From Micromonospora echinaurantiaca (GTDB lineage Bacteria; Actinomycetota; Actinomycetes; Mycobacteriales; Micromonosporaceae), in NCBI RefSeq assembly GCF_900090235.1, contig NZ_LT607750.1, positions 4,207,001 to 4,271,000 on the forward strand: a stretch of DNA of 64,000 bases. The letters are read 5' to 3'. Below the pieces are notes generated by a model. That model did no database searches and had not been told where the DNA came from. It worked only from the letters and a program-made list of their open reading frames with translations. Below, in pieces: positions 13,305-44,592 of the stretch. How positions within the stretch are numbered: the first letter of the stretch is position 1; the number at the start of each line of letters is the position of its first letter. Position numbers and translations under genes: made by a program.

Positions 13305-13424
13305 TCCCGACGTGTTTTGAACTACGGTCCACGCAGCGACGGGGGCGGCGCTCCACGCACTGGCCACGCTAGATTCCATCGTCGCGCGCATCCCCGTCGA
13401 ACCGAAAGATCGGAGCGCCCATCC

Positions 13425-14321: not shown

Positions 14322-15132
14322 GCACTTCGAGACGTCCAACGACGTGACGGTCACCCTGCCCCGGGTCCGGGAGCGGATCCCGACAGTGGTGGTCGACGAC
14401 GCGCACGTGATCTACCGGGTGCACAAGGGCGCCGGCGGCGGTGGCGGGCCGGTGGGCGCGCTCAAGCGGATCGTGACCCGCACCTCCGCGCCGAACATCC
14501 GGGAGGTGCACGCGGTCAAGGGGGTCAGCTTCACCGCGTACCGGGGTGAGGCGATCGGGCTGATCGGCAGCAATGGCTCGGGCAAGTCGACCATCCTGCG
14601 GGCGATCGCCGGCCTGCTGCCGGTGAACCGCGGCGCGATCTACACCCAGGGCCAGCCCTCGCTGCTGGGCGTGAACGCCGCCCTCTTCAACGACCTCGCC
14701 GGCGAGCGCAACGTCGTACTGGGCTGCCTGGCGATGGGGATGCACCCGACGGAGGTGCAGCGGCAGACCCCGGAGATCATCGAGTTCTCCGGGATCAACC
14801 AGCGCGGCGACTTCGCCTCGCTGCCGATGCGTACCTACTCCTCCGGCATGGCCGCCCGGCTGCGCTTCTCGATCGCCGCGGCGAAGAAGCACGACGTGCT
14901 GCTCATCGACGAGGCGCTGGCCACCGGCGACAAGGGCTTCCGCAAGCGCAGCGAGCAGCGGGTGCGGGAGTTGCGGGAGAGCGCCGGCACGGTGTTCCTG
15001 GTCAGCCACCAGCTCTCCTCCGTCCGCGACACGTGCGAACGGACGATCTGGCTGGAATCGGGCGTCATCCGGATGGACGGCCCGACCGACGAGGTGGTCC
15101 GGGCCTACGAGGCGTTCGCCAACGGCAAGTAG
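14314..15132 (+). CDS. Polysaccharide/teichoic acid ABC exporter, ATPase (TagH/Wzt-like)
   Basis: 272 aa. Walker A is GSNGSGKST, the Q-loop region follows, the signature is YSSGMAARL, Walker B is VLLIDEALATGD, and the H-loop is LVSHQ. The N-terminal YRVHKGAGGGGGPVGALKRI insert before the first beta strands is typical of TagH/Wzt-type ATPases. There is no long C-terminal carbohydrate-binding domain, so it resembles TagH or short Wzt proteins. GTG start, overlapping the permease gene by 8 bp. Confidence 0.92.
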   Translation: MVEHFETSNDVTVTLPRVRERIPTVVVDDAHVIYRVHKGAGGGGGPVGALKRIVTRTSAPNIREVHAVKGVSFTAYRGEAIGLIGSNGSGKSTILRAIAGLLPVNRGAIYTQGQPSLLGVNAALFNDLAGERNVVLGCLAMGMHPTEVQRQTPEIIEFSGINQRGDFASLPMRTYSSGMAARLRFSIAAAKKHDVLLIDEALATGDKGFRKRSEQRVRELRESAGTVFLVSHQLSSVRDTCERTIWLESGVIRMDGPTDEVVRAYEAFANGK

Positions 15133-15265
15133 GCCCAGCCATCGACCCGCGTGCGCGCGGGCCGCGTCGTCGCGTTGGGGCGGCGCGGCCGGCGCGTTAA
15201 GGTTCATCCCGTCGCCGCGCCGGCGGAACCTTCTGTTCACGTACCCCTGAGAGTGAGGATCGGCA

Positions 15266-16768: not shown

Positions 16769-16802
16769 CCCGGGCGCGGCGACGGCGGGAGGCGCAGCCG
16801 AG

Positions 16803-26727: not shown

Positions 26728-27939
26728 TCAGCGCGAGTCGACGTACGCCGATGGCCGGTCGAGCGTGCGCGGACCCGGCACGGCAACCTGCGCGACCGTC
26801 GGGCCGGCCGGGGCCGGCAGCGGGTCCGGCGCCGCGACCGCCGCCGGGCCGCCGATCGTCCGCTTCGGACGGCGCGGAGCCAGCCGGCGCATCATCGGCG
26901 TCTCGACGTACCGATGCAGCAACGCGGCCAGACCCAGGTTCAGCAGCAGGAAGCCGAGCACCACGGCCACTCCCCACCAGCCGGTGAAGCCGGTCCCCCA
27001 GTCCCCGGTGAGCCGGAGCACGGTGATCATCACGAAGACGTGCACCAGGTAGAAGGCGAACGAGACCTCACCGAGCCAGACCATCGGCCGGGACCGCCAC
27101 GGTGAGCGCCGGCCCCGCACGTCGGCGTCCGCCGCCGCGGTGATGACCAGGATGTACGCCACCGAGAGCAGCGCCGCCCACAGCTCGGCCCGGACCCACT
27201 GAGCGGCGACCACCCAGGTGACCGCGAAGATCAGGCTGGCCAGCGGCAGGCCCGGCCCCCGCCAACGGCCACGACGCATCAGCTCGGCCGCGGCCACTCC
27301 CATCCAGAACTCGAGCGACCGCACCGGCGGGAAGACCTGGGTGAACCACCAGCGGTCGGCCTCGGGCACCAGGGCCTGACCGGGCCAGAGCGCGAGGATG
27401 AGCAGCGGCACCCCGACCACCACCGCCCACAGTGCCCACGGCCGGGCCCGGCGCACCAGCGGCAGCACCAGCGGCAGGCAGAAGTAGAAGAAGAACTCGC
27501 AGGACAGCGACCAGCTGACCGTGTTGACGCTGTAGAAGTGGCCGGGTCGAGGGTCCCAGGCCTGCAGAAGGAAGAGGTTCTCCAGCGCGGCGCCGACGTT
27601 GACCGGGTCGGCGAACCAGAGCCCCACCAGCAGCACCAGCGCCCAGAGCAACAGGTGGTTGGGGTAGATCTTGGCGAACCGGCGCCGCCAGAAGGCCCGC
27701 CGGGAGTCGCCCGGCCGGGCCGACCAGACCAGCACGAACCCGCTCAGGATGAAGAAGAACTGCACGCCGGACAGACCCAGGGTGAAGAACCAGTTCACCA
27801 CGGCCTGGTGGTCGGGCTCGGCGATGATCCGCATCGTGCCGGCGTGGAAACCGAAGACCAGCAGCGCGGCGATCCAGCGCAGCCCGGTCAGCGACGGCAG
27901 CCGGCTTGCGGACGGCGCGGCGGGGGCGGCGGCCGTCAT
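26728..27939 (-). CDS. Acyltransferase 3 family protein (OafA-like)
   Basis: 403 aa integral membrane O-acyltransferase with about ten helices: LTGLRWIAALLVFGFHAG at the start carries the catalytic-type His of the family, followed by GVQFFFILSGFVLVW and the RRFAKIYP motif. Such enzymes transfer acetyl or other acyl groups from the cytoplasm to extracytoplasmic glycans or lipids. The C-terminus is a 60-residue Pro/Ala-rich tail. ATG 27939 follows a GGGAGTGGGG stretch. Divergent from the pyruvyltransferase gene; it may acylate the same surface polymer. Confidence 0.88.
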   Translation of the reverse strand: MTAAAPAAPSASRLPSLTGLRWIAALLVFGFHAGTMRIIAEPDHQAVVNWFFTLGLSGVQFFFILSGFVLVWSARPGDSRRAFWRRRFAKIYPNHLLLWALVLLVGLWFADPVNVGAALENLFLLQAWDPRPGHFYSVNTVSWSLSCEFFFYFCLPLVLPLVRRARPWALWAVVVGVPLLILALWPGQALVPEADRWWFTQVFPPVRSLEFWMGVAAAELMRRGRWRGPGLPLASLIFAVTWVVAAQWVRAELWAALLSVAYILVITAAADADVRGRRSPWRSRPMVWLGEVSFAFYLVHVFVMITVLRLTGDWGTGFTGWWGVAVVLGFLLLNLGLAALLHRYVETPMMRRLAPRRPKRTIGGPAAVAAPDPLPAPAGPTVAQVAVPGPRTLDRPSAYVDSR

Positions 27940-28257
27940 GCCCCACTCCCGGCCGTCGGCGAGGTGACCAGCACGTACGTCTCCTTCTCGGCGGCGGCGC
28001 GGGCGACCCGCGGCCGGAGCGCCGCAGGTGGCGCCCGGGGCGGAGTCCCGCCCGGGCACCCTACCCGGCGGCGCCGACCGGCTGACCGGGCCGGGGCACG
28101 GCGGTGACGGGCGTCTGTGCACAGGGCGGCCGGTGGCCTAATATTCCCCGAACCCTCAGGTGCGAGCCGCCCGGCCTTGGTGGCCGGCCGGAGTCGAGCG
28201 GTGACGCGGTGTGCGCCCGGAACGCTCCCGAGGGCGGACGAGAGGCGGAGCGGCGAG
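27940..28257. other. Divergent intergenic promoter region
   Basis: 318 bp between the acyltransferase (-) and pyruvyltransferase (+) genes. A good -10-like TAATAT is at 28139-28144 on the plus strand, without a clear -35. A GCCCGGG/CCCGGGC dyad lies at 28033-28057. No gene is visible. Confidence 0.4.
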
Positions 28258-29583
28258 ATGCACCAGCGGATCCTGATGCGGGCCAAGAAGGGCCCGTTCG
28301 ACGTCTACTCCGCGGAGGAGGCGTTCGAGGGCAACTGGATCGGCGAGAACAACGGCAACCTCGTCTTCAGCCACGCCGCCCACAAGCTGCTCAAGACCCG
28401 CAGCACCGAGATCACCTCGAACCAGTTCAAGATCGACCTGCGCGAGGCCGACCTGGTCAACGAGCGGTACGACGTGTTCGTCATCCCGCTCGCGAACGCC
28501 TTCCGGCGCAGCTACGCGCACCGGCTCGTCACGATGACCAAGTTCATCGAGCGGCTGAAGATCCCGGTGGTGGTGCTCGGCGTCGGCGTGCAGACCGACG
28601 TCAACGGCGACCGGGAGTACCTGCGGCCGATCGACGACGTGGTCACCCGGTTCGTCCGGGCGGTGCTCGACCGGTCGCACAGCATCGGCGTACGGGGCGA
28701 GATCACCGAGGGCTACCTGCGCACCCTGGGCTTCTCCGCGGTCGACGTGATCGGCTGTCCGTCGATGTTCCTGCACGGCGACAGCCTGCGGGTGGAGAAG
28801 AAGAAGGCCGCCCTCGACCGGGACGACCGGGTGGCGCTGACCATCTCCCCGTACGTCAAGTCGATGGCGAAGATCATCGCCGCGCACCACGAGCGTTACC
28901 CCAACCTGCGCTACCTGCCGCAGGACCTGAAGACCCTGGGCACCCTGCTCTACGGCGACGCGCCGGAGGACCGGGGCAAGACCGCGGCGATCCCGATCCA
29001 CACCTCGCACCCGCTGTTCGTCGAGGACAAGGTGCGGATGTTCCTCGACCCGTGGACCTGGATGGACTACCTCTCCGGGTTCGAGTTCGCCTTCGGCACC
29101 CGGATCCACGGCACCATCACCGCGCTGGTCTCCGGCACCCCCGGCTACCTGTTCGCGCACGACTCGCGCACCCTGGAACTCGCCCGCTACTTCGACATCC
29201 CGCACCGGGTGATGAAGGACGTGCCGGCCGACGTCGACGCCGCGCAGCTCTACGACGAGGCCGACTACACGGCGCTGAACGACGGCCACAAGGCGCGGTA
29301 CGAGACCATGCTGTCCTTCCTGGCCAAGCACGACCTGGGCAACTCGTTCGCCGACGGCGACAGCGCCGCCCGCTTCGACGCCGAGGTGCGGGCGACCACC
29401 TTCCCGCCCGCCGTGCGGCCGGCCGCCGCCACCGACCGGGACGCCCTGCTGGCCCGGGTGCAGTGGCTGCGCGACCGCAACGCCGGGCTCCAGCAGGAGG
29501 TGGAGACGCTGCGGGAGCAGCAGTTGCGGGCCCGGGTCCGGCGGGCGGTCGGCGGCCCGGTGCGGCGCATCCTGAACCGTTAA
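28258..29583 (+). CDS. Polysaccharide pyruvyltransferase family protein
   Basis: 441 aa. The GWxGxxNxGxxL-like beginning (GNWIGENNGNLVFSHA), the nucleotide-binding-like middle (VVVLGVGVQTD, HSIGVRGEITEGYL), and FGTRIHGTITALVSGTP with the conserved His place it in the CsaB/WcaK family. These add a pyruvate ketal from phosphoenolpyruvate to surface sugars. The C-terminus has a coiled-coil (QWLRDRNAGLQQEVETLREQ) and an Arg-rich tail typical of actinobacterial glycan enzymes. ATG 28258 has GGAG about 7 nt upstream. First gene of the plus-strand run to pseI. Confidence 0.85.
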   Translation: MHQRILMRAKKGPFDVYSAEEAFEGNWIGENNGNLVFSHAAHKLLKTRSTEITSNQFKIDLREADLVNERYDVFVIPLANAFRRSYAHRLVTMTKFIERLKIPVVVLGVGVQTDVNGDREYLRPIDDVVTRFVRAVLDRSHSIGVRGEITEGYLRTLGFSAVDVIGCPSMFLHGDSLRVEKKKAALDRDDRVALTISPYVKSMAKIIAAHHERYPNLRYLPQDLKTLGTLLYGDAPEDRGKTAAIPIHTSHPLFVEDKVRMFLDPWTWMDYLSGFEFAFGTRIHGTITALVSGTPGYLFAHDSRTLELARYFDIPHRVMKDVPADVDAAQLYDEADYTALNDGHKARYETMLSFLAKHDLGNSFADGDSAARFDAEVRATTFPPAVRPAAATDRDALLARVQWLRDRNAGLQQEVETLREQQLRARVRRAVGGPVRRILNR

Positions 29584-30924: not shown

Positions 30925-31977
30925 ATGACGACGACAGTGAAGATCGGACCGCACGTGGTCGGGGCCGGGGAGCGACCCTTCGTGGTCGCCGAGATGTCCG
31001 GGAACCACAACGGTGACCTGGATCGGGCGCTGGCCATCGTGGACGCGGTCGCGGCCAGCGGGGCGCACGCGCTCAAGCTCCAGACGTACCGGCCGGACAC
31101 CATCACCATCGACGTCGACACGCCCGACTTCCGCATCTCCGGCGAGCACGAGCTGTGGGGCGGGGAGAACCTCTACCGGCTCTACGAGCGGGCGCACACC
31201 CCGTACGAGTGGCACGAGCCGATCTTCGCGCGGGCCCGGCGGCACGGGCTGACCGTCTTCTCCTCGCCGTTCGACGCCTCCGCCGTGCGGCTGCTGGAGG
31301 AGCTGGACGCCCCGGCGTACAAGATCGCGTCGTCGGAGCTGGTGGACCTGCCGCTGATCCAGCTGGTCGCGAGCACCGGCAAGCCCCTGGTCATCTCCAC
31401 CGGGATGGCCACCGTCGCGGAGATCGACGCCGCCGTGCGCACCGCCCGGGATGGCGGCGCCGCCGGCATCGTGCTGCTGGCCTGCACCGCGTCCTACCCG
31501 GCGCCGCCCGCCGACAGCAACCTGCGCCGGCTGCCGGTGCTGGCGGACGCGTTCGGCGCGCCGGTCGGGCTCTCCGACCACACCCCGGGGATCGGCGTGG
31601 CGGTGGCCTCGGTGGCGCTGGGCGCCTGCTTCATCGAGAAGCACGTGACCCTCGACCGGGCCGACGGCGGGGTCGACGCGGACTTCTCGCTCGACCCGGG
31701 CGAGCTGGCGGCCCTGGTGGTCGAGTCCGAGCGGGCGTACGCCGCCCTCGGCGGCACCGCGATCGGCCCGACCCCGGCCGAGCGGGAGGGGCTGCGCTTC
31801 CGCCGCTCGCTCTTCGTGGTCGAGGACGTCCGCGCCGGCGACCCGGTGACGGCGGCCAACGTCCGCTCCATCCGGCCCGCGGGCGGCCTGCCGCCGGTGG
31901 AGATCGACCGGGTGCTCGGCCGCACCTTCACCGTCGACGTCCCGCGCGGCACTCCGCTGAGCTGGGACCTGATCTGA
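30925..31977 (+). CDS. pseI: Pseudaminic acid synthase (PseI/NeuB family)
   Basis: 350 aa. NeuB-type TIM barrel with AEMSGNHNGDLDRAL, LKLQTYRPDTITID, SSPFDASAVRLLEEL, KIASSEL and GLSDHTPG, then a C-terminal SAF (antifreeze-like) domain (about residues 285-350, FVVEDVRAGDPVTAANVRSIRPAGGLPP). The SGNHNG, QTY.PDT and LYERAHTPYEWH segments are PseI-type rather than NeuB-type. It condenses phosphoenolpyruvate with 2,4-diacetamido-2,4,6-trideoxy-altrose to give pseudaminic acid. Genes pseB, pseC and pseG are about 7-14 kb away on the same strand. Confidence 0.88.
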   Translation: MTTTVKIGPHVVGAGERPFVVAEMSGNHNGDLDRALAIVDAVAASGAHALKLQTYRPDTITIDVDTPDFRISGEHELWGGENLYRLYERAHTPYEWHEPIFARARRHGLTVFSSPFDASAVRLLEELDAPAYKIASSELVDLPLIQLVASTGKPLVISTGMATVAEIDAAVRTARDGGAAGIVLLACTASYPAPPADSNLRRLPVLADAFGAPVGLSDHTPGIGVAVASVALGACFIEKHVTLDRADGGVDADFSLDPGELAALVVESERAYAALGGTAIGPTPAEREGLRFRRSLFVVEDVRAGDPVTAANVRSIRPAGGLPPVEIDRVLGRTFTVDVPRGTPLSWDLI

Positions 31978-32102: not shown

Positions 32103-32579
32103 TCAGCCGGCGGTCGGTGGCGGGGCGAAGGCGACGGTGACCACCAGGTCGCCCAGGCGCAGGGTGCGCCAGAGCGCACCGGTACCCGGCGGGACGACCA
32201 GGCCGTGCCGGCGCCACCAGGCGGCCATCGGCACGTCGGCGAGCTTGCAGAGGCACTCCGCGCGGGTCCACCGGGCCCAGAAGTCGGCCGTGCCGAAGCG
32301 GCCAGCCAGCGCCGGCGGGACGGCCGCCGCGACCCGCTCCGCGTCGACGGCCACCCGCCAGCCGGCGGTCGGGCCGTACCAGCCGACGCACCGGCCGTCG
32401 TCGAGGTGGCTACGGGTGACCGCCGTGGCCAGCTCGGCGGGGGTACCGACCCGCAGGTGCCGGTCAGCGGCGCCGAGCAGCGCCGGCACCGGGCGCGGCC
32501 CGGCCGCCGACGCCAACCGAGTCACCGGCGCGGGCGGCGCGGGCCGGACGACCCCGGCCGGCTCAGACGGACGCGGCAC
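32103..32579 (-). CDS. Phosphopantetheinyl-transferase-like protein, shortened
   Basis: 158 aa. The core of the 4'-phosphopantetheinyl transferase fold is visible: VAVDAERV (metal-binding Asp/Glu), then FWARWTRAECLCKL, which matches the WxxKExxxK motif with Glu and the final Lys kept. The usual family is about 210-240 aa, and the normal N-terminal half is weak or absent. It overlaps the SDR gene by 17 nt and is the last gene of the ACP/ligase/SDR operon, so a role in loading that ACP is attractive. It could also be a degenerate relative. Start GTG 32579. Confidence 0.6.
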   Translation of the reverse strand: MPRPSEPAGVVRPAPPAPVTRLASAAGPRPVPALLGAADRHLRVGTPAELATAVTRSHLDDGRCVGWYGPTAGWRVAVDAERVAAAVPPALAGRFGTADFWARWTRAECLCKLADVPMAAWWRRHGLVVPPGTGALWRTLRLGDLVVTVAFAPPPTAG

Positions 32580-33318
32580 CGTCGACCACGATGACCTGGC
32601 CGTTGATGTTGGTCTGCTCGCGGAGCAGCATCCGCACCACCGGCACCACCTCCGCCGGCTCGGTGAGGTGACCGGTCGGGGTACGGCGCACGATCTGGTC
32701 GAGCTGGGTGGGCCCGAGCACGGCGGACATCTCCGAGGCGAAGAAACCCGGGGCGACCGCGTTGACCAGCATCCGGCCGCCGAGTTCCCGGGCCAGCGAC
32801 CGGGTGGCGGCGTCCATCCCGCCCTTGGTGGCCGAGTACGCGACCAGGCCGGGGAAGCCGCGCTGCGCGCAGATCGAGGTGACGTTGACGATCCGCCCGC
32901 GCCGCCCCCGGGCCAGCAGCCGGCGGACCACCAGCCGGGTGAGCCGCAACGGTGCGGTCAGGTTGGTCTCGACGATCCGGCCGATGTCCTCGGCGGCGGT
33001 GTGGGCGTGCAGCGAGTCCTGCCCCACCGCCGCGTTGTTCACCAGGCCGTCGACCGGGCCGAGTCGCTGCTCCGCCGCCCGCAGGAAGGCACTCGTGGCG
33101 GCGTGGTCGGTGACGTCCACCGCGTCGACGTGCGTCCGGTCCGAGTGCTCGGCGGCGAGCTTCGCCAGCTCCGGGGTGACGGTACGGGCGAAGGCGGCCA
33201 CCCGTACCCCCCGCTCGACCAGGTCGGTGACGATGGCCAGGCCCAGTCCGCGGGAGCCGCCCGAGACGAGCACCACCGAGGCGGGCGGGACGGGTTGGGG
33301 GTCGGCGTGCTCAGACAT
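32563..33318 (-). CDS. SDR family oxidoreductase (FabG-like)
   Basis: 251 aa short-chain dehydrogenase: VVLVSGGSRGLGLAI (cofactor), NNAAV, the catalytic Ser in VNVTSI and YSATKGG 13 residues later, and the C-terminal TNINGQVIVVDGA. The pattern is that of 3-ketoacyl-ACP reductases (FabG). ATG 33318 overlaps the ligase gene by 8 bp. In an operon with an ACP and an acyl ligase it probably reduces a 3-ketoacyl-ACP to 3-hydroxyacyl-ACP, by inference. Confidence 0.85.
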   Translation of the reverse strand: MSEHADPQPVPPASVVLVSGGSRGLGLAIVTDLVERGVRVAAFARTVTPELAKLAAEHSDRTHVDAVDVTDHAATSAFLRAAEQRLGPVDGLVNNAAVGQDSLHAHTAAEDIGRIVETNLTAPLRLTRLVVRRLLARGRRGRIVNVTSICAQRGFPGLVAYSATKGGMDAATRSLARELGGRMLVNAVAPGFFASEMSAVLGPTQLDQIVRRTPTGHLTEPAEVVPVVRMLLREQTNINGQVIVVDGAASV

Positions 33319-34741
33319 CGCTCTTCAGGGTCTCCTTGACGGGGATCTCGGTCAGCACCCGGATCCGGCGGGGCACGGCGTGGTCGGGCAGTCGGTCCGC
33401 GCACCAGCGGACCAGGGCGGCCTCGTCGGGCGGCTCGGGGGCGTCCGGCGCCGGGACCACCTCGGCGACCACCATCCGGCCGAGCAGCGGCGCCCGGCGA
33501 CCGGTGACCCGGGCCCACGCCAGCCCCGGGTGCGCGGTGAGCACGTCGCGGACCAGGCCGGCCGACACCTTGCTGCCCCCGACGTTGATCTCGTCGGAGT
33601 CGAGCCGCCCGGTGATCAGCACCCGGCCGTCCGCCACCCGCACCCGGTCGCCGGTGCGGACCGGGCCGGCCAGCCCGACCCCGTGGTACGGCGAGGTGAT
33701 CACCAGCTCGTCGCCACGTACGGAGAGGGTGGGCCGGCCGGGGACGTCCCGGTCCAGCCAGTCGACCGGGAAGCCGGCCCGGCCGTCGTGCACCACGATC
33801 GAGGCGCCGACCTCCGACGAGGCGTAGATCCAGGAGATCCGGGCAGCCGGGAACAGCTCCCGCAGCTGGTCCAGGATCGCCTGGTCGACCGGCTCCCCGC
33901 CGAGGGTGAGCTGGCGCAGCGGCACCCGGGCCAGCGCGGCGGCGTCCCGGTACAGGGTGCGCCGCCAGAAGGTCGGGGTGCCGGACACCGCGTCGACGCC
34001 GTGCGCCGCGGCGAGCACCGGCCACTCGTCCAGCTCGTCCGGCTCGACCACCACCAGGTGCTGCCCGGGCTGGGTCAGGGACAGCGTCACCACCTGCCAC
34101 CAGGCGTAGCTGCCCGGCGCGTACGGGCAGAGCCAGGTGCGCTCCGGCTGGGGGCCGCGGACGGTGGTCAGCGAGTCGAGGGTGTGCCCGACCCGCTTGG
34201 GCCGGCCGGTGGACCCGGAGGTCAACAGCCAGAGCCGCCCCGGCTCGGGCGGGCGCGACCGGCCGGAGCCGTCGCCGGCGGCCCGGACCCCGGCGTCGCC
34301 GCCGTCCTGACCACCCCCGTCGCCCGGGGCGCCCCCGCCGGCCGGGCCCCGGTCGGCCCGGGCGCCGTCGTCGGTCGGGACGCCGCCGTCGGTCCGGGCG
34401 CCCTCGCCGATCCGGGCGCCACCATCGAACCCGGCGCCGTCGTCGGGCCGGGTGCCGTTGTCGCCGAGGGTGGTGACGGTGAAGCCGGCGGCGCGCAGCT
34501 CGGCCCGCATCGCCTGGTCGACCCGGCCGGGCGTGCCGAGCAGCAGCTCGGTGCCGTACACCGCGTGGTGGCGGGCCGCGGCGAGGGCGGCCCGGGCCGA
34601 CCGGGCGAGCACCGCGGCCGGGTCGGGCAGGGCCAGCTCGGGCAGCGCCCGCCAGTCGATCGCGACGCCACCGACGACCAGCCGGTTGTCGGCGCCCGCC
34701 GGCTCTCCGGTCGCGGGCGGGCGGGCGGCGGAGACGGTCAC
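33311..34741 (-). CDS. AMP-forming acyl-ACP/CoA ligase-like protein
   Basis: 476 aa adenylate-forming enzyme: LLTSGSTGRPK (P-loop, A3), YASSEVG (A5), RTGDRVRV and LITGRLDSDEINVGG (A7-A8), and the C-terminal ETLKSD with the catalytic-type Lys. It should activate a carboxylic acid as an adenylate for transfer to the adjacent ACP. A Gly/Asp-rich segment of about 60 residues (roughly 97-160) with repeated GARTDGG-like units separates the N-terminal lobe from the P-loop and is unusual. Start GTG 34741 overlaps the ACP stop (GTGA). Confidence 0.85.
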   Translation of the reverse strand: MTVSAARPPATGEPAGADNRLVVGGVAIDWRALPELALPDPAAVLARSARAALAAARHHAVYGTELLLGTPGRVDQAMRAELRAAGFTVTTLGDNGTRPDDGAGFDGGARIGEGARTDGGVPTDDGARADRGPAGGGAPGDGGGQDGGDAGVRAAGDGSGRSRPPEPGRLWLLTSGSTGRPKRVGHTLDSLTTVRGPQPERTWLCPYAPGSYAWWQVVTLSLTQPGQHLVVVEPDELDEWPVLAAAHGVDAVSGTPTFWRRTLYRDAAALARVPLRQLTLGGEPVDQAILDQLRELFPAARISWIYASSEVGASIVVHDGRAGFPVDWLDRDVPGRPTLSVRGDELVITSPYHGVGLAGPVRTGDRVRVADGRVLITGRLDSDEINVGGSKVSAGLVRDVLTAHPGLAWARVTGRRAPLLGRMVVAEVVPAPDAPEPPDEAALVRWCADRLPDHAVPRRIRVLTEIPVKETLKSDV

Positions 34742-34989
34742 TGCCGCTGCAGCTCGACGAGGAAGTCGAGCACGTCGCCGACGGTGGCGATGCGGCGCAG
34801 GCCGGGCGCGTCGAAGTTCAGCTCCTCGCCCGTCTCGTCCTCCACCCGCAGGGCCAGTTCGGAGAAGTCCAGCGACCGGAAGCCGATCTCCCGCAGCTGC
34901 GCGGCGTCGTCGTCGGGCAGCGCCCGGCCCTGGTTCCGCAACACCTGCGCCATGAGGTCGCGAATCTGCGCGCGACTCAATTCTTCCAT
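34738..34989 (-). CDS. Acyl carrier protein
   Basis: 83 aa: MEELSRAQIRDLMAQVL, GFRSLDFSELALRVE, and TVGDVLDFL, the four-helix ACP pattern. The phosphopantetheine Ser is in GFRSL where most ACPs have GxDSL, so the Asp is replaced by Arg. ATG 34989 gives the normal length; an upstream start would add 26 non-ACP residues. It is the first gene of the acyl cassette and divergent from the GNAT gene at 35090. It carries the acyl group that the neighbours make or modify, by inference. Confidence 0.88.
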   Translation of the reverse strand: MEELSRAQIRDLMAQVLRNQGRALPDDDAAQLREIGFRSLDFSELALRVEDETGEELNFDAPGLRRIATVGDVLDFLVELQRQ

Positions 34990-35089
34990 GCGCCGGAGTG
35001 TACCGCCCGAAGAATGGATATCTGATTTACCGGGGGTTGCCGGTAGGGTGCGACGCGACCCGAACAATGGTGCGGAAAGCGAGAGTCAC

Positions 35090-35599
35090 GTGCTGCGCGA
35101 AGCGACCGGGGACGACGTTAACCTGATGTTGTCCTGGCGTAATCAGGAAATCAACCGGCAGGTCAGCCGGAACAGCCACGAGATCACCCCGGCCGAGCAC
35201 GCCCGGTGGTGGTCGGGGGTGCGGGCCGATGAGTCGCGGCGGGTGCTGGTGTACGTCCGCGACGGCCGGCCGTGCGGCGTGGTGACCTTCTTCGACCTGC
35301 GCCTGACCGGCCCCAGGACCGCTTCCTGGGGCTTCTACCTGGACGCTGAAGGGCTGGCGGAGCGCGGTGAGACGCTGCCGGCCTGGTTGGAGATCATGCG
35401 GGAGGCGGTCGACCACGCCTTCGACGAACTCGGGCTGGACCGGCTCGACGGCGAGGTGCTCGCCCACAACACCGTGGTGCGGCAGATGAACCGCCGGTTC
35501 CGGTTCGTCGAGGGCACCCCCCGCGACGAGTTTTCCGACGGCCGGGAAATCACCGTCATCCCGATCGCCCTGGACCGGGCGGACCGCCGTCGCCGCTGA
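35090..35599 (+). CDS. pseH: GNAT N-acetyltransferase, PseH-like
   Basis: 169 aa. GNAT fold: LREATGDDVNLMLSWRNQEINRQVSR, ARWWSGV, GVVTFFDL, SWGFYLD, and LDRLDGEVLAHN, which match the N-acetyltransferases of pseudaminic acid clusters (PseH, acetylation of UDP-4-amino-4,6-dideoxy-N-acetyl-altrosamine). GTG 35090 gives a normal N-terminus; GTG 35048 is an alternative. Divergent from the acyl cassette. PseH uses acetyl-CoA; whether this one prefers an acyl-ACP is open. Confidence 0.8.
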   Translation: MLREATGDDVNLMLSWRNQEINRQVSRNSHEITPAEHARWWSGVRADESRRVLVYVRDGRPCGVVTFFDLRLTGPRTASWGFYLDAEGLAERGETLPAWLEIMREAVDHAFDELGLDRLDGEVLAHNTVVRQMNRRFRFVEGTPRDEFSDGREITVIPIALDRADRRRR

Positions 35600-37863: not shown

Positions 37864-38847
37864 GTGAGCGAGTTGAATGGTTCGTCCATTCTGGTCACCG
37901 GAGGCACGGGATCCTTCGGCCGGACCTTCCTCCGGCACGTCCTGGCCGAGGCCGACCCGGCCCGGGTGGTGGTCTTCTCCCGCGACGAGCTCAAACAGTA
38001 CGAGCTGCGCCAGCAACTCGGTGACGACCCGCGGCTGCGCTGGTTCATCGGCGACGTGCGGGACCGACACCGGCTGACCCGGGCGATGCACGGGGTGGAC
38101 CACGTGGTGCACGCCGCCGCCCTGAAGCAGGTGGACACCGCCGAGTACAACCCGTCGGAGTTCATCGCCACCAACATCACCGGCTCGCAGCACGTGGTGG
38201 ACGCCGCGATCGAGGCCGGCGTCAAGAAGGTCATCGCGCTCTCCACCGACAAGGCGTCCAGCCCGATCAACCTGTACGGGGCCACCAAGCTGGTCGGCGA
38301 CAAGCTCTTCGTCTCCGCCAACCACTACGCCGCGCACCACCCCACCCGGTTCGCGGTGGTCCGCTACGGCAACGTGGTGGGCAGCCGCGGCTCGGTGGTG
38401 CCGCTGTTCCGCCGGCTGGCCGCCGAGGGCAAGAGCCTGCCGATCACCGACAAGCGGATGACCCGCTTCTGGATCACCCTCGACCAGGCGGTCCGGTTCG
38501 TCCTGGACTCGTTCGACCAGATGCAGGGCGGCGAGCTGTTCGTGCCGCGGATCCCCAGCATGCGGATCCTCGACCTGGTCGAGGCGGTCGCCCCGGACGC
38601 CACCACGCACGAGATCGGCATCCGGCCGGGCGAGAAGCTGCACGAGGAGATGATCGCGCCGGACGACAGCCGGCGGACGCTGCGCGCCAGGGACCGGTTC
38701 ATCGTGCAGCCGACCATCGCGACCTGGGGCTACCAGCCGCCGGTCGACTGCGAGCCGGTGCCGGACGGGTTCGCGTACCAGTCGGACGGCAACGACGAGT
38801 GGCTCAGCGTGGCACAGCTGCGCGCCATGCTCGGCGTCGCGGCGTGA
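37864..38847 (+). CDS. pseB: UDP-GlcNAc 4,6-dehydratase (inverting), PseB
   Basis: 327 aa extended SDR. GGTGSFG near residue 13, VVFSRDELKQYELRQ, GDVRDRHRL, HAAALKQVDTAEYNP, then STDKASSPINLYGATK with the catalytic Lys and Tyr region, and RPGEKLHEEMI. This is the PseB/FlaA1 pattern: C6 dehydration and C5 inversion of UDP-GlcNAc to UDP-2-acetamido-2,6-dideoxy-arabino-hexos-4-ulose. GTG start; its stop overlaps the start of pseC (GTGA). First gene of the six-gene operon to 44592. Confidence 0.93.
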   Translation: MSELNGSSILVTGGTGSFGRTFLRHVLAEADPARVVVFSRDELKQYELRQQLGDDPRLRWFIGDVRDRHRLTRAMHGVDHVVHAAALKQVDTAEYNPSEFIATNITGSQHVVDAAIEAGVKKVIALSTDKASSPINLYGATKLVGDKLFVSANHYAAHHPTRFAVVRYGNVVGSRGSVVPLFRRLAAEGKSLPITDKRMTRFWITLDQAVRFVLDSFDQMQGGELFVPRIPSMRILDLVEAVAPDATTHEIGIRPGEKLHEEMIAPDDSRRTLRARDRFIVQPTIATWGYQPPVDCEPVPDGFAYQSDGNDEWLSVAQLRAMLGVAA

Positions 38848-40001
38848 CCGGGATGCTCCCGTACGGCCGGCAGTCGATCACCGACGACGACGTCGCCGCG
38901 GTGGTCGCCGCCCTGCGCAGCGACTGGCTGACCACCGGCCCGCAGGTCGAGGCGTTAGAGACCGACCTGGCGACGTGGACCGGCGGCGCCGGCTGCGCCG
39001 CCGTGGCCAACGGCACCGCGGCGCTGCACGTCGCCTACGCGGCGGCCGGCGTCGGCCCCGGCGACGAGGTGGTGGTGCCGCCGATGACCTTCGTGGCGAC
39101 CGCCAGCAGCGCCGCTCTGCTCGGCGCGAAGATCGTGTTCGCGGACGTCGAGGAGGAGACGTACACCCTCGACCCGGCCGCGGTGGCGGCCGCGACGACG
39201 GCGCGCACCCGGGTGGTGTCCGCGGTCGACTACGCCGGTCACCCCGCCGACTACGACGCGCTGCGCGCCGCGCTGGCCGGCTCGGACGCGCTGCTGCTGG
39301 CCGACGCCGCGCACTCGATCGGGGCCAGCTACCGGGACCGGCCGGTCGGATCGCTGGCCGACCTGACCACCTTCTCCTTCTTCCCCACCAAGAACCTGAC
39401 CACCGCCGAGGGCGGCGCGGTCGCCAGCACCAACCCGGAACTGCTCAAGCGGGCCCGCCGGTTCCGCAACATCGGACTGGTCCGCGAGCGCGCCGAGCAG
39501 CGCTGGCCGGACGAGGGCGGCTGGCACCAGGAGGTGCACGAGTTCGGGCTGAACCACCGGTTGCCGGACGTGCTCTGCGCGCTCGGCCGCAGCCAGCTGC
39601 GCCGGCTCGACGCGTTCCTCGCCCGCCGGGCCCGGCTGGTCGCCCGCTACGACGCGGCGCTGGCCGAGCTGCCCGGGGTGCGTACCCCCGGCCGGCGGCC
39701 GTGGGCCCGGCCGGCCTGGCACCTCTACCCGATCCGGGTGCTCGACGGTCGCCGCCGCGAGGTGTACGAGCGGATGCGCGCCGCCGGCATCGGCGTGCAG
39801 GTCAACTACATCCCGGTGCACTGGCACCCGGTCTTCGCCGACCTCGGCTACCGGCGCGGTTCCTGCCCGGTGGCCGAGTCGTTCTACGCCGAGCAGCTGT
39901 CCCTGCCGCTCTTCCCCGACCTCACCGACAGCGACCAGGACCGGGTCATCGACGCGCTGGACGCGGCCCTGCGCGGCGTCCCGGCGCGGACCGCCGCCTG
40001 A
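38844..40001 (+). CDS. pseC: UDP-4-amino-4,6-dideoxy-N-acetyl-altrosamine transaminase, PseC
   Basis: 385 aa DegT-family PLP aminotransferase. LPYGRQSITDDDVAAVVAAL is the PseC start; NGTAALHVAYAA, PMTFVATAS, DAAHSIGASYR, and the PLP Lys in SFFPTKNLTTAEGG follow; VQVNYIPVHWHP is typical. It aminates C4 of the PseB product. GTG start overlapping the pseB stop; the next gene begins 10 nt after its stop. Confidence 0.93.
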   Translation: MTGMLPYGRQSITDDDVAAVVAALRSDWLTTGPQVEALETDLATWTGGAGCAAVANGTAALHVAYAAAGVGPGDEVVVPPMTFVATASSAALLGAKIVFADVEEETYTLDPAAVAAATTARTRVVSAVDYAGHPADYDALRAALAGSDALLLADAAHSIGASYRDRPVGSLADLTTFSFFPTKNLTTAEGGAVASTNPELLKRARRFRNIGLVRERAEQRWPDEGGWHQEVHEFGLNHRLPDVLCALGRSQLRRLDAFLARRARLVARYDAALAELPGVRTPGRRPWARPAWHLYPIRVLDGRRREVYERMRAAGIGVQVNYIPVHWHPVFADLGYRRGSCPVAESFYAEQLSLPLFPDLTDSDQDRVIDALDAALRGVPARTAA

Positions 40002-40011
40002 GGGACGACCG

Positions 40012-40848
40012 ATGCACCACGCCAACCATTTCTACGGCCACGCCCACGTGCTGGCCCGCTACGCCGGCCTGGCCGACGGGCACCCACCGCGGATCAACGG
40101 GTACGTCCAGCACGGCTGGAACATCGGCGACGGCCTCGCCCCCGGCCACCCGTACGCCGAGCGCACCCCGAGCCTGCTCTGGTCCGAGCAGACCCGGCGC
40201 CGGGCCTGGTCGGTGGGGCGGCGCAACGTCACCGTGATCGGGGCACCGTTCGCGTACCTGCTGGCGCTGCGGCCGGAGGACCCGCCGGAGCAGGAGCGGG
40301 AGGGGACGATCTGGTACCCGTTCCACGGCTGGGAGGGCCAGCACGTCAAGGGCGACCACCGGGAACTCATCGCGCTGATCCGGGCCACCGAACCCGGCCC
40401 GGTCACCGTCTGCCTGTACTGGCACGAGCACCGGATGCGGCGGGTACGGCGGCTGTACGAGAACGCCGGCTTCCGGGTCATCTGCCACGGCTACCGCGGC
40501 CACTGGTGGCGCGACACCGACCCGCTCTTCCTGGACAAGCAGCTCACCGAGCTGCGCCGGCACCGCCGGGTGGCGTCGAACCGGCTGACCAGCGCCATCT
40601 TCTACGGCATCGCGGCCGGCTGCGAACCGGCGGTCTACGGCGACCCGATGGTGCTGGCCGACGAGGATCCCACCTTCGGCGGGACCGCCCGGATCCGCCG
40701 CCAGTGGCCGGAGCTGCACGGCGCGTCGGTGCACCTGCCGACCGCCGTCGAGATCGCCCGCGCCGAACTGGGCACCGACCACCGCTTGCCGCCGGCCGCG
40801 CTGCGCGAACTGCTCGGCTGGGCGCACCCGCAGGAGGAGACGAGTTGA
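40012..40848 (+). CDS. Unknown protein in Pse operon, possible glycosyltransferase
   Basis: 278 aa, family not recognised. No signal peptide or membrane helices. Features: QHGWNIGDG near the N-terminus, GAPFAYLLAL, YPFHGWEGQHVKGDHRELI, CLYWHEHRMRRVRRLYENAG, and SAIFYGIAAGCEPAVYGDPM near residue 200. The alternation of two Rossmann-like halves and the GIAAGCEPAVYGDP segment resembles the donor-binding part of GT-B glycosyltransferases. It is embedded in the pse operon between pseC and a methyltransferase-like gene, and no standard nonulosonate transferase is otherwise present, so it is my candidate for that step. Low certainty on function, high on being a gene. Confidence 0.7.
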   Translation: MHHANHFYGHAHVLARYAGLADGHPPRINGYVQHGWNIGDGLAPGHPYAERTPSLLWSEQTRRRAWSVGRRNVTVIGAPFAYLLALRPEDPPEQEREGTIWYPFHGWEGQHVKGDHRELIALIRATEPGPVTVCLYWHEHRMRRVRRLYENAGFRVICHGYRGHWWRDTDPLFLDKQLTELRRHRRVASNRLTSAIFYGIAAGCEPAVYGDPMVLADEDPTFGGTARIRRQWPELHGASVHLPTAVEIARAELGTDHRLPPAALRELLGWAHPQEETS

Positions 40849-42659
40849 CCATCGAGACCGCACCCCCGGTCGCGCTGCCCGGCGGGGAGATGCTGGCCTG
40901 GTCCGACCTGCCGGCGGTCCGCCTCGCCGCCGGCGGTCCGCTGGCCGCGCTGGCCGCCCGGGTGGTGCCCGCCGGGGCCCGGGTGCTGCTCGCCGGCCCG
41001 CACGACCCCGCGCTGCTGGACCGGCTGGCCCACGCCGAGGTGACCTGCCTGCTGCGCGGTTATCCGGACGGGGTGGCGCTGGCCGACCGGGCGGCCCGGG
41101 TGGTGGTGGGCGGGCCGGCCGGGCTGCCCGACGACGGCCGGTACGACGTCATCGTCGCGGCGGCCGGGCTGGACGCGGTGGAGTCGGTCGAGGGCGACCG
41201 GCTGGGCTGGACCGGGGTGCTGGCGCGCCTGGTGGCCGCGCTGCGCCCCGGGGGCGACCTGCTGCTGCGGCTGGACAACCCGCTCGGCCTGCACCGGCTG
41301 GTCGCCGCCGCCCCCTGGTACGCCGCCCGGGAGGACTCCGCCTGGACGGTGGACGGGGTGCTCGACGCCGCGTACCCGGCCAACCTCGACCGGCTCCGCG
41401 AGCGGCTGGCCGGGGCCGGGCTGCACGCCGACGCCTGCTTCGCCGCGTACCCGCGCCCGGACGCGGCCACTGCGCTGGTGGACGCCGCCGCGCTGGCCCG
41501 GCGCACCGACTCGGGACTGTTCGACGCGATGCTGCACGGCGCCTGCGCCGGCGGTTTCGCCGGCCGCGAGGTGCTGCGGGATCCGGCCCGGCTGGCGGTC
41601 GACGCGCTGCACGCCGGCCGGGCCACCGACCTGGCGCCGGGCTGGCTGGTGCTCGCCCGCAAGGCCACCGGCCCCGAGCGGCCGGCCGCCGGGGACCGGG
41701 CCGGCCTGCCGGTGGCGCTGGTGCAGACCGGCCCGCCCGGGGTGGGCGTGGTCGAGGTGGTGGACGCGCCCGAGGGATGGCGCTGGCGGGCCGACCGGCC
41801 GACCGAGCGCGGTGGGCCGGCGGCGCCGTACGCCACCCGGGAGGCCGCGTACCGGGACCCGGCGGCGCTGACCGGGCCGGTTCCGGACGGCCGCCTGCTG
41901 CGTACCCTGCTGCTCGACGGCTGCCTGCGCCGTGACCTGGACGGGCTGCGCCGGCTGCTGCGCGGGTACGCGACCTGGCTCGCCGGCCAGGCCGGACCCG
42001 ACGGTCGGCTCGCCGGCGCGGTGGCGTTGGCCGGGGTGGACAACGTCGTGGTCGCTGGCGACCGGTACGCCGTGCTCGACCCGAGCTGGCGGGCCGCCGA
42101 GCCGCTGCCCGGCCAGGTGGTGCTGGCCCGGGCCCTGTGGCGGTTCGCCGCCGAGCTGCTCACCGGCGGGTACGCCCACCCGTGGCCGTCCACCCTGGAC
42201 GTGCCGGGGCTGACCATCGTGCTCGGTGGGCTGGCCGGGCACGACCTGAGCCGGGCTACCGTCGACGCGGCGGTGGAGACGGAGGCGGCGGTCACCGCCG
42301 CGTTGCACGGGCTGGACACCGACCGGCGGGTGGCCCTCGCCGGCGAACTGCGTGCCGTCGAGCCCACCGACCCGCCGCCGGGGCCGCGCAGCTACCAGCA
42401 GCTTCGCGAGGCGTGGCTGCGCCAGCGCGAGGAGCTGACCCGGCTCGGCGCGCTGCTGAAGTGGACCGAGGAGCTGCTCACCTCACGGGAGCGGGCGCTA
42501 CGCCGGGCCGACGCGACGATCCAGCTGCTCAGCGGCTCGCTCAGCTACCGGGTGGGCCGGCTGGCCATCACCCCGGCCCGGTTGGCCAAGCGGGGCGCCC
42601 GGGCCGCGAAACGCCGGGCCCGCGCGGCGCTGGGCACCCGGCGGGAGGAGCAGCAGTGA
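40845..42659 (+). CDS. Two-domain SAM-methyltransferase-like protein
   Basis: 604 aa. Residues about 20-230 look like a class I Rossmann methyltransferase (VPAGARVLLAG, DVIVAAAGLDAVE, LRPGGDLLLRL), but the glycine motif is altered and may not bind SAM. Residues about 260-480 form a second domain with GVDNVVVAGDRYAVLDPSW, reminiscent of kinase-like or APH-type C-terminal domains of such proteins. The end is a coiled coil plus a basic tail (SLSYRVGRLAITPARLAKRG) like many actinobacterial glycosyltransferases. TTG 40845 follows AGGAGGAG and overlaps the preceding stop (TTGA). Possibly O-methylates the glycan. Confidence 0.65.
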   Translation: MTIETAPPVALPGGEMLAWSDLPAVRLAAGGPLAALAARVVPAGARVLLAGPHDPALLDRLAHAEVTCLLRGYPDGVALADRAARVVVGGPAGLPDDGRYDVIVAAAGLDAVESVEGDRLGWTGVLARLVAALRPGGDLLLRLDNPLGLHRLVAAAPWYAAREDSAWTVDGVLDAAYPANLDRLRERLAGAGLHADACFAAYPRPDAATALVDAAALARRTDSGLFDAMLHGACAGGFAGREVLRDPARLAVDALHAGRATDLAPGWLVLARKATGPERPAAGDRAGLPVALVQTGPPGVGVVEVVDAPEGWRWRADRPTERGGPAAPYATREAAYRDPAALTGPVPDGRLLRTLLLDGCLRRDLDGLRRLLRGYATWLAGQAGPDGRLAGAVALAGVDNVVVAGDRYAVLDPSWRAAEPLPGQVVLARALWRFAAELLTGGYAHPWPSTLDVPGLTIVLGGLAGHDLSRATVDAAVETEAAVTAALHGLDTDRRVALAGELRAVEPTDPPPGPRSYQQLREAWLRQREELTRLGALLKWTEELLTSRERALRRADATIQLLSGSLSYRVGRLAITPARLAKRGARAAKRRARAALGTRREEQQ

Positions 42660-43534
42660 CCGGCCCGGAGCGGACATCACCGCCAGCCGCCACGGGGGCG
42701 CCGGCCGGCGGCTCGGCAGCCCGGGCCGGCACGGCACCCCCGCACGCAGCGGCGGCGCGGGCCGGGGCGGCGGCGCAGGCCGACGCGGCGCGGGCCGGGG
42801 CGGGGCCGCGGATCGTCGGCGTCGTGCAGGCCCGGATGGGCTCCTCCCGGCTGCCCGGCAAGGTGCTCCGGCCGCTCGCCGGGCGCAGCGTGCTCGGCCG
42901 CGTGGTCCGGGCCGCCACGGACAGCGGCGTCCTCGCCGACCTGGTGGTTGCCACCAGCACCGACCCGGCCGACGACGCCGTGGTCGCCGAGTGCGACCGG
43001 CTCGGCGTGCCCTGGCACCGGGGGCCGGTCGACGACGTGCTGACCCGGTTCGTCGGCGCGCTCCGGGCGCACCCGGCGGACGCGGTCATGCGGTTCACCG
43101 CCGACTGCCCGCTGCTCGACCCGGAGATCGTCGCGCTGGTGGCCGGGGTCTACCGGGCGGTGCCCGGGCTGGACTACGCCAGCACCGCGATCGCCCGTAC
43201 GCTCCCCCGCGGGCTGGACGTCGAGATCATCCGGGCCGGCGCGCTGGACGCCCTGGACCGGCTCGCCACCGGCCACCACCGCGTGCACGTCACCTCCTAC
43301 GCGTACACCCACCCGGAGCTGTTCCGGGTGCTCGGGGTGACCCTCACACCGGATCGCTCGGGGCTGCGGCTCACCCTCGACACCGAGCAGGACTGGCGGC
43401 TGGTGCGGGCGGTGATCGACCATTTCGGTGACGTCAGCGTGCCGCTGGCGAAGCTCGCCGACTGGCTCGACGGGCAGCCGGCGCTGCGCGTGCTCAACGC
43501 CGCAGTGCGGCAGAAGCGGCTGGAGGAGTCCTGA
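42656..43534 (+). CDS. Cytidylyltransferase-like protein (SpsF/PseF type)
   Basis: 292 aa. After an Ala/Gly-rich N-terminal extension of about 50 residues (encoded by direct DNA repeats at 42751-42803), the core begins IVGVVQARMGSSRLPGKVLRPL, with DCPLLDPEIV, the family nucleotidyl-binding and metal motifs. This is the SpsF/PseF-type family; PseF makes CMP-pseudaminic acid from CTP. In pse operons SpsF-like proteins are the usual stand-in for PseF. GTG 42656 overlaps the previous stop. A later start would remove the low-complexity extension, but none has a ribosome binding site as good as the GGGAGGAG here. Confidence 0.8.
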   Translation: MTGPERTSPPAATGAPAGGSAARAGTAPPHAAAARAGAAAQADAARAGAGPRIVGVVQARMGSSRLPGKVLRPLAGRSVLGRVVRAATDSGVLADLVVATSTDPADDAVVAECDRLGVPWHRGPVDDVLTRFVGALRAHPADAVMRFTADCPLLDPEIVALVAGVYRAVPGLDYASTAIARTLPRGLDVEIIRAGALDALDRLATGHHRVHVTSYAYTHPELFRVLGVTLTPDRSGLRLTLDTEQDWRLVRAVIDHFGDVSVPLAKLADWLDGQPALRVLNAAVRQKRLEES

Positions 43535-44592
43535 GCACGCTACGAGTCGGGTTGCGCTGCGACGCCGGGCCGAGCCGCGGCGTCGGTCACCTGGTGCGCT
43601 GCCTGGCGCTCGGCGAGGAGTTCCTGGCCCGGGGCGCCACCGTGGAGCTGTTCGGGTCGGTCGAGCGGGTCGGCTGGGCGGCCGCCCAGCTCGCCGCCCG
43701 GGGCATCCCGCTGCGTCCCGGCCCGGAGACGCCCGCCGACCTGGTCGCCGCCGCGCGCCGGCACCGGCTGGACGTGATGGTGCTCGACTCCTACGAGCTG
43801 GACCCGGCCGGGACGGGCGCGCTGCGCGCGGCGGGCGTGCTGACCGTGGCCGTCGTCGACGGCGACACCCGGGGGCAGGACGCCGACCTCTACCTCGACC
43901 AGAACTTCGGCGCGTCGACCAGCGCGCCGGCCGGGCGGCTGCTCGCCGGCAGCGCGTACGCCCTGCTGCGGGACTCGGTGCTGGCCGCGCGGCCGGCGAC
44001 GCCCCGGCCGGCCACGGCGGTGGGCCGGGCCCGGGTGCTGGCCTTCTTCGGCGGCACCGACGCGGTCGGCGCCGCCCCGGTGCTGACCCGGGTGCTCGTC
44101 GCCACCGGGCATCCGATGGACCTCACCGTCGTGGTCGGTCGCCCCGAGGTGGCGGCGGACCTCGCGGCGGTGACGCCGGGACGCGGGCAGGCGCTGCACC
44201 CGGTGCCGCCCACCGACGAGCTGCCCGCCCTGATCGGCGCGGCCGACCTGGTGGTCAGCGCCGCCGGCACCTCCACCTGGGAGCTGTGCTGCCTGGGCGC
44301 GCCGGCCGCGCTGGTGTGCGTCGTGGACAACCAGCGCGAGTCGTACCGCCGGGTGGTGGCCCACCGGCTCGCCGCCGGCCTCGGCGAGCTGCCGGCGCTG
44401 ACCGGCCCCGGGGTGGCCGGCCGCGCGGCCCGCACCGCGGCGGCCCGGATCCTGCGCGGGCTGCTCACCTCGCCGGCGCACCGCGCCGCGCTCTCCGCCC
44501 GGGCCTGGGCCGCCGTCGACGGGCGCGGCCGCGCCCGGGTCGCCGACGCGGTGCTCGCCGCGGTCGCCGCCGCCCCGGCCACCCCTCGGTAG
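43531..44592 (+). CDS. pseG: UDP-2,4-diacetamido-2,4,6-trideoxy-altropyranose hydrolase, PseG
   Basis: 353 aa GT-B-like hydrolase. LRVGLRCDAGPSRGVGHLVRCLAL carries the catalytic-type GxGH His; AFFGGTDAVGAA, HPVPPTDELPALIGAADLVVSAAGTSTWELCCLGAPA follow. It removes UDP so that PseI can condense the free sugar. The family N-terminus fits only if translation starts at CTG 43531, overlapping the SpsF stop (CTGA) just after GGAGGAG; the next start, TTG 43552, would lose the first beta strand. Last gene of the pse operon. Confidence 0.85.
   Translation: MSTLRVGLRCDAGPSRGVGHLVRCLALGEEFLARGATVELFGSVERVGWAAAQLAARGIPLRPGPETPADLVAAARRHRLDVMVLDSYELDPAGTGALRAAGVLTVAVVDGDTRGQDADLYLDQNFGASTSAPAGRLLAGSAYALLRDSVLAARPATPRPATAVGRARVLAFFGGTDAVGAAPVLTRVLVATGHPMDLTVVVGRPEVAADLAAVTPGRGQALHPVPPTDELPALIGAADLVVSAAGTSTWELCCLGAPAALVCVVDNQRESYRRVVAHRLAAGLGELPALTGPGVAGRAARTAAARILRGLLTSPAHRAALSARAWAAVDGRGRARVADAVLAAVAAAPATPR

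Follow-up and report, generated by a model that had tools for sequence, protein, structure and literature searches.

Pseudaminic acid (Pse) and related sugars are known from their chemistry to bear unusual N-acyl groups. The flagellin viosamine island of Pseudomonas syringae, whose sugar is N-acylated with 3-hydroxybutyryl, combines an acyl carrier protein (ACP) with fatty-acid-type genes; it differs from the genes described below in its sugar (Qui4N) and its ketosynthase-based route. In the Aeromonas Group II flagellin glycosylation islands, as far as the excerpted text of a study of 98 strains goes, genes for an ACP, a 3-oxoacyl-ACP reductase and an AMP-dependent synthetase lie directly downstream of pseH; a fatty acid or 'liposugar' role is proposed for them by the authors, and the linking sugar of Aeromonas piscicola AH-3 is given as a Pse derivative of 376.14 Da (PMC7874193). 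Enterobacterial flagellin glycosylation islands are described, in the part of the source at hand, as carrying Acp, a CaiC-type ligase, FabG and LuxC/LuxE (PMC4875605), and 4-hydroxybutyric acid has been found amide-linked to Pse in polysaccharide backbones (PMC9912281, from an excerpt). Here we describe a four-gene cassette, encoding an ACP, an adenylate-forming ligase, a FabG-like short-chain dehydrogenase/reductase (SDR) and a compact phosphopantetheinyl transferase (PPTase)-like protein, inside the Pse locus of Micromonospora echinaurantiaca. The window, meaning the whole stretch of 64,000 nucleotides that was analysed, comprises positions 4207001-4271000 of contig NZ_LT607750.1 (assembly GCF_900090235.1) in a one-contig genome of 7.2 Mb (74.6% GC). 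We consider it probable that the cassette makes a dedicated acyl-ACP for the PseH step, replacing acetyl-CoA, and that a different N-acyl group is thereby placed on Pse and built into a wall glycopolymer. The cassette is in this respect a concrete, self-contained candidate pathway for the supply of such groups.

The four minus-strand open reading frames (ORFs) overlap by 4, 8 and 17 bp in the order ACP, ligase, SDR and PPTase-like gene, and a PseH-like GNAT lies on the plus strand, divergent from the cassette and inside the Pse locus; this arrangement, proposed in a first-pass annotation of the same DNA, is confirmed by the ORF coordinates. Among the Pse genes, PseB and PseI pass their NCBIfam cut-offs, and PseC, PseF and PseG fall below theirs and are hence named '-like', although these three and the GNAT still have the expected family as their best or near-best NCBIfam match. 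The ACP passes PF00550 (24.3 bits against a cut-off of 20.8), and the carrier-serine motif GFRSLD is found in 79/79 ACPs of related loci; a search of plasmids with the ACP gave zero matches. The ligase passes both PF00501 (57.8 bits against 29.9) and PF13193 (43.4 against 24.5), and its TSGSTGRPK, YASSE, TGD and C-terminal lysine columns, whose functional meaning we take as given, are invariant across 10 aligned sequences apart from one S/T column. For the SDR, which passes PF00106 (157 bits against 26.6), residues N119, S148, Y161 and K165 are invariant across 10 sequences, the best solved relative is MupS (4yxf, E 1.1e-58), and the top NCBIfam model is 3-oxoacyl-ACP reductase, with a score below cut-off. 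Other genomes carry the same cassette genes with conserved catalytic residues, so that the ORFs do not represent a chance reading of the DNA. Within the ligase gene, an 18-bp unit repeated 7.8 times (window 34327-34463) encodes a Gly/Asp/Ala-rich insert of 57 residues (approximately 102-158) that is missing from the other nine sequences of the 10-sequence alignment. At about residue 430, the ligase of another locus (L023) carries an insert of another, Ser/Pro-rich composition, and the closest ligase relatives (445-470 aa, among the matches listed) may have shorter versions of the insert.

The fourth member of the cassette gave no Pfam match (PF01648 included) and no NCBIfam match, and a sequence search of solved structures returned nothing; PF01648 scanned over the genome at E <= 10 hit four places, none of them within the window. 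Comparison with the PPTase fold gives a weak match. The pattern D-x-E ... W-x-x-x-E-x-x-x-K, which we take to be the metal and catalytic residues of the phosphopantetheinyl transferase superfamily, is present in 58/58 extracted relatives, and D79, E81, W104, E108 and K112 are among 12 columns invariant in 48 sequences. On the strength of these residues we propose that the small protein may be a PPTase that activates the ACP. The family is compact, at about 110-200 residues, and has no Pfam model.

The association of the cassette with Pse genes was examined at several taxonomic depths. A ligase-alignment scan of named genomes found 154 relatives, and the best 80, all from Actinobacteria, were kept for locus counts. 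By tblastn, these 80 loci hold the ligase and SDR throughout, the ACP in 79, the GNAT in 75, PseI in 70, the PPTase-like gene in 59 (60 before an overlap filter; 58 sequences extracted), PseB in 52 and PseC in 50. For these close relatives the first-pass proposal that the unit is tied to Pse is borne out, as the 10 genomes whose ligase locus lacks PseI have it above cut-off elsewhere (10/10). PseB is missing from 28 loci, and a check of 25 of the corresponding genomes (a set that omits L056, L066 and L082) found it in 25/25. When 150 genomes were sampled evenly across the family, 33 carried PseI and 10 the ligase, and every ligase genome was also a PseI genome (hypergeometric 7.9e-8, a value computed over genomes that are related and not independent). 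The nine ligase loci of the family contain the ACP, ligase, SDR and GNAT in 9/9 cases, PseI in 8/9 and the PPTase-like gene in 6/9; the one without PseI (L022) ends at a contig end, and PseI lies on another contig of the same genome. Three genomes of a 396-genome phylum sample carry the ligase, all with PseI, which is above cut-off in 13/396. A 394-genome class sample gave ligase matches in 17 genomes, seven strong (555-777 bits) and 10 weak (139-185 bits). Six of the seven genomes with strong matches have PseI, compared with 20/394 overall (5.3e-8), and the contig with the seventh strong ligase is 5.9 kb long, in a genome assembled as 380 contigs. Among 27 cassette-less PseI loci, drawn from family genomes without a ligase match plus second PseI copies, matches to the ACP, ligase and PPTase-like protein were found in 0/27.

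It is the GNAT, rather than PseI, that is co-inherited with the cassette. On a quick GNAT tree of 98 rows (76 cassette, 22 cassette-less) the cassette state changes once, with an SH-like approximate likelihood ratio (SH-aLRT) support of 99, whereas the PseI tree of 90 rows (68 cassette, 22 cassette-less) needs four, each of them imposed by supported branches. A single cassette-less clade on the PseI tree is rejected (approximately unbiased test, p 5.4e-72), and the GNAT tree restricted to the same 90 rows again shows one change. Five of the 80 cassette loci have no row in the GNAT tree, two of them at contig ends (L056, L090), two on contigs with about 2.6 kb of sequence before the ACP on its upstream side (L086, L093) and one with no GNAT (L104); five of the 27 cassette-less loci likewise yielded none, and the PseI tree includes 68 of 71 possible cassette rows. 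Where both genes are present (75/75 loci), the GNAT is upstream of the ACP on the opposite strand, at a distance of <=300 bp in 56 and of 4.3-6.6 kb in 19. Congeners with and without the cassette at the same Pse locus provide a natural experiment. In the cassette-less congener L182, the polysaccharide pyruvyl transferase, a family 2 glycosyltransferase (GT2), PseI, PseB, PseC, PseF and PseG occupy the same positions at 77-93% identity (PseI 86%, PseB 93%, PseC 87%), the ACP, ligase, SDR and PPTase-like genes are missing, and the GNAT, directly before PseI, is 50% identical. A Hamadaea locus (L076) shows the reverse of L182, with a PseI nearest to those of cassette-less genera and a GNAT in the cassette clade. 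Such co-inheritance is expected if the GNAT uses the cassette product, and it points to N-acylation at the PseH step, which agrees with the earlier suggestion that the acyl group is destined for the sugar.

A catalytic signature separates the two sets of GNATs. The window protein passes PF13302 (30.2 bits against 25.4) and fails the PseH model TIGR03585 (69.4 against 93.1), with PseH as its best match both by NCBIfam and among solved structures (4xpk, E 2.1e-8). At the position matching Tyr138 of Helicobacter pylori PseH, an equivalence obtained by counting seven residues from the aligned Asn127 and not by superposition, Asn134 stands in 76/76 cassette GNATs and His in 22/22 cassette-less ones. 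Arg131 is likewise present in 76/76 cassette rows, as against Leu/Val/Ile, and Val123 in 76/76, as against Thr/Ala in the cassette-less rows. Tyr138 is the proposed general acid of the H. pylori enzyme, according to the section of the structural report at hand (PMC4363471).

In the pathway we propose, the small PPTase would arm the ACP, the ligase would turn a short acid into acyl-AMP and load it onto the ACP, and the SDR would reduce the ACP-bound acyl group. The divergent GNAT would move this group, instead of acetyl from acetyl-CoA, to the 4-amino group of UDP-4-amino-4,6-dideoxy-beta-L-AltNAc, after which PseG, PseI and PseF would yield CMP-Pse acetylated at N5 and bearing the new acyl group at N7, and the modified Pse would enter a wall glycopolymer and not flagellin. 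We infer all of these reactions, and the role of the ACP as acyl donor, alongside the observed gene order, catalytic residues, Pse co-occurrence and GNAT-cassette co-inheritance. The acyl cargo would most likely be a hydroxylated C3-C4 group; the best matches of the SDR, to MupS and (below cut-off) 3-oxoacyl-ACP reductase, point to a hydroxyacyl product. Calculated Pse residue masses are 316.127 for the acetyl form (Pse5Ac7Ac), 360.153 for hydroxybutyryl and 376.148 for dihydroxybutyryl (Pse5Ac7(dihydroxybutyryl)); the last lies close to the 376.14 Da given for the AH-3 linking sugar (PMC7874193, from the excerpted text), but is shared by hydroxybutyryl plus glycolyl, two lactoyl groups, and propionyl plus glyceroyl. 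In a wider reading, on which our judgement is evenly balanced, the locus would represent an ACP-dependent branch of nonulosonate biosynthesis. Its GNATs, derived from or sister to PseH, would have given up the thiol-CoA general acid, with Asn in place of Tyr or His, be served by a private ACP and a private miniature PPTase, and be exchanged at the Pse locus as a GNAT-plus-cassette unit, making the N7 acyl group of Pse a surface trait that actinobacteria of several families could swap on their wall polymers.

Several observations weigh against an ACP-dependent, Pse-dedicated cassette. CoA is just as plausible as the acyl acceptor of the ligase, and acyl-CoA as the donor for the GNAT. The NCBIfam PseH score, tried as a divider of cassette and cassette-less GNATs, fails, with overlapping ranges of 69.4-78.7 bits (four cassette GNATs) and 68.0-87.1 bits (five cassette-less), all under 93.1. 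Locus L104 has the cassette and no GNAT across 9.5 kb upstream, the PPTase-like gene is unmatched in 20/80 loci (18 Kribbella and two others), and the genomes with weak class-sample ligases (L269-L278) lack PseI in 10/10 cases. The cassette-less GNATs of the tree were all drawn from a single family, and the contrast could be taxonomically narrow; cassette rows from that same family and genus nonetheless fall on the cassette side. The first of these points leads to an alternative that we regard as unlikely, though one to be taken seriously, namely that the cassette yields acyl-CoA (or releases its acyl group to CoA), the GNAT being an ordinary acyl-CoA enzyme with another preference and the ACP serving reduction only. 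By profile search the closest solved relative of the ligase is indeed a malonyl-CoA ligase (E 2.9e-15), and PseH-type GNATs of solved structure bind acetyl-CoA (PMC4363471, in the section at hand), but if CoA carried the product there would be no need for a strictly conserved, dedicated ACP with a PPTase-like gene beside it. The weak match of the ligase to the amino acid adenylation model TIGR01733 (57.5 bits, far under the cut-off of 317.4) would fit a carrier loaded with an amino acid or another non-reduced acid, as in DltA/DltC, with the SDR acting elsewhere, for example on a sugar. We find this improbable, as the SDR is present in every one of the 80 loci, recurs beside the ligase in alphaproteobacterial and non-Pse relatives, and has 3-oxoacyl-ACP reductase, with a score below cut-off, as its closest NCBIfam model.

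The remaining explanations concern the destination of the product. A cassette product in the form of a longer fatty acyl chain, destined for a lipid-bearing sugar, would be in line with what the Aeromonas authors suggest for the same three gene types beside pseH, yet 17 Pfam-scanned ORFs of the window at 26.7-45.3 kb include no LuxC, LuxE or ketosynthase match, and the AH-3 linking sugar, at the mass quoted in the excerpted text, is too light for a long acyl chain (PMC7874193); we hold this to be very improbable. A membrane O-acyltransferase gene (PF01757) lies 4-8 kb from the cassette and could in principle receive the acyl-ACP for O-acylation of the polymer. This candidate was rejected, and we give it little credence, because the PF01757 protein is unmatched in 45/80 cassette loci and the cassette-less congener L182 retains the gene (80% identity). 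An accidental neighbourhood, with the unit serving an unrelated natural product, could appeal to the weaker ligase-SDR relatives that occur without PseI, but the co-occurrence with Pse genes and the co-inheritance with the Pse GNAT extend over several actinobacterial families and leave it hardly any likelihood.

The surroundings of the cassette suggest where the modified sugar might go (Table 1). Flagellin modification was rejected for this host, as PF00669 has no match genome-wide at E 0.01. Judged from the neighbourhood, the genes at 13317-18512 likely serve a teichoic-acid-type wall polymer. Actinomycete teichulosonic acids contain di-N-acyl Pse. Kribbella, which carries the cassette, has teichulosonic acids according to the portion of the source at hand (PMC6113628). 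The conserved 278-aa protein of the Pse locus was matched in 55/80 cassette and 16/27 cassette-less loci and is thus not tied to the cassette; its AlphaFold2 model (predicted local distance difference test score, pLDDT, 86.6) bears a weak likeness to UDP-GlcNAc 2-epimerases and CalG glycosyltransferases (best E 1.6e-4), and going by this model it could be a Pse transferase. The long conserved ORF between this protein and PseF was matched in 57/80 cassette loci. The polysaccharide pyruvyl transferase was matched in 8/80 cassette loci and in L182, and pyruvylation of the polymer may be variable among loci.

Table 1. Features of the Pse locus and its surroundings, in window positions.
Feature	Position	Strand	Family matches and other evidence
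ABC-2 permease, ABC ATPase, IspD-SDR fusion, glycerophosphotransferase	13317..18512	+	PF01061, PF00005, PF01128 with PF00106, PF04464
Membrane O-acyltransferase	26728..28122		PF01757
Polysaccharide pyruvyl transferase	28117..29583		PF04230
PseI, pseudaminic acid synthase	30925..31977	+	TIGR03586 449.8 bits, cut-off 340.25
Compact PPTase-like protein, 158 aa	32103..32579	-	motif, weak fold match
FabG-like SDR, 251 aa	32563..33318	-	PF00106
Adenylate-forming (AMP-binding) ligase, 476 aa, with 57-aa low-complexity insert	33311..34741	-	PF00501 + PF13193
Acyl carrier protein, 83 aa, carrier Ser in GFRSLD	34738..34989	-	PF00550
PseH-like GNAT, 169 aa, proposed N-acyltransferase	35090..35599	+	PF13302; NCBIfam PseH below cut-off
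PseB, UDP-GlcNAc 4,6-dehydratase (inverting)	37864..38847	+	TIGR03589 490.2 bits, cut-off 407.75
PseC-like aminotransferase	38799..40001	+	TIGR03588 400.4 bits, below cut-off 423.5; PF01041
Conserved Pse-locus protein, 278 aa	40012..40848	+	no Pfam/NCBIfam match; AlphaFold2 model weakly GT-B-like
Long conserved ORF	40506..42659		no Pfam/NCBIfam match
ORF with PseF-like cytidylyltransferase in C-terminal part	42137..43534	+	PF02348 78.9 bits; TIGR03584 27.2 bits, below cut-off 205.7
PseG-like hydrolase	43552..44592	+	TIGR03590 128.3 bits, below cut-off 153.55

More distant relatives place the cassette in a wider setting. Near the weak class-sample ligases, an SDR relative was found in 10/10 cases (41-47% identity) and a hexapeptide-acyltransferase match in 4/10, with gene order read in four loci, and in these loci the same acyl-donor module may supply other amino sugars. 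The close, PPTase-bearing form thus belongs with Pse, and the pair of ligase and SDR, which as a family is not Pse-specific, represents an older module that works with other transferases as well. The first-pass annotation would have counted a four-gene unit occurring mostly without pse genes against its reading, and the close relatives of the cassette do not show such a pattern. A tblastn search of plasmids with the ligase gave 32 records, the best 14 of which (37-42% identity) comprise 12 from Azospirillum and two from Rhodobacterales; six regions were inspected. The four Azospirillum regions (L131, L134-L136) all have PseI and a PseF-like gene near the ligase (39-42%) and SDR (43-46%), and the two Rhodobacterales regions have an acyltransferase, ACP, ligase and SDR without PseI. 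Searches of a 5.8-billion-protein set were read for 120 of their matches each. With the window ligase (961 matches in all), the named ones among these were actinobacterial, the most similar being from Micromonospora, including one from M. echinaurantiaca at 96% identity, so that this search did not reach Aeromonas; with an Azospirillum ligase (508 matches in all), those named were nearly all from Azospirillum.

Compared with these known or related systems, the Micromonospora locus shares a core and differs in its setting. The Azospirillum islands have the ACP, ligase and SDR in the same order, following PseI and a PseF-like gene; unlike the cassette, they show no match to the PPTase-like protein and a GNAT match of 24-25% identity in 2/4 only, and in the two annotated records ACP, ligase, SDR, ketosynthase III and flagellin follow one another consecutively. 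The Aeromonas Group II islands, likened here by gene type and position, also place an ACP, a reductase-like SDR and an AMP-ligase beside pseH, whereas their target is flagellin, their hosts are Gram-negative, luxC/luxE are present, and no PPTase is named in the excerpted text (PMC7874193). The enterobacterial islands share the ACP, ligase and reductase within surface-sugar islands, and sialic-acid-type genes are reported from three Plesiomonas strains in the part of that source at hand (PMC4875605). Unlike PseH itself, the GNAT falls below the family cut-off, has Asn at the Tyr138 position and adjoins an acyl-ACP cassette. The earlier statement that no described system has this set therefore holds only in part: ACP, reductase and ligase genes downstream of pseH (PMC7874193) and ACP/FabG/ligase sets (PMC4875605) are already in print, and the excerpts of those reports mention neither a PPTase-like gene nor a wall polymer of actinobacteria as the setting. 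Searches of the open-licence PMC literature yielded no account of this unit in actinobacteria, of its PPTase-like protein or of the GNAT co-inheritance, the last of which is the new finding here. If the proposed pathway is correct, it would add a compact PPTase family and would explain the ACP, reductase and ligase genes of the Aeromonas and enterobacterial flagellin islands.

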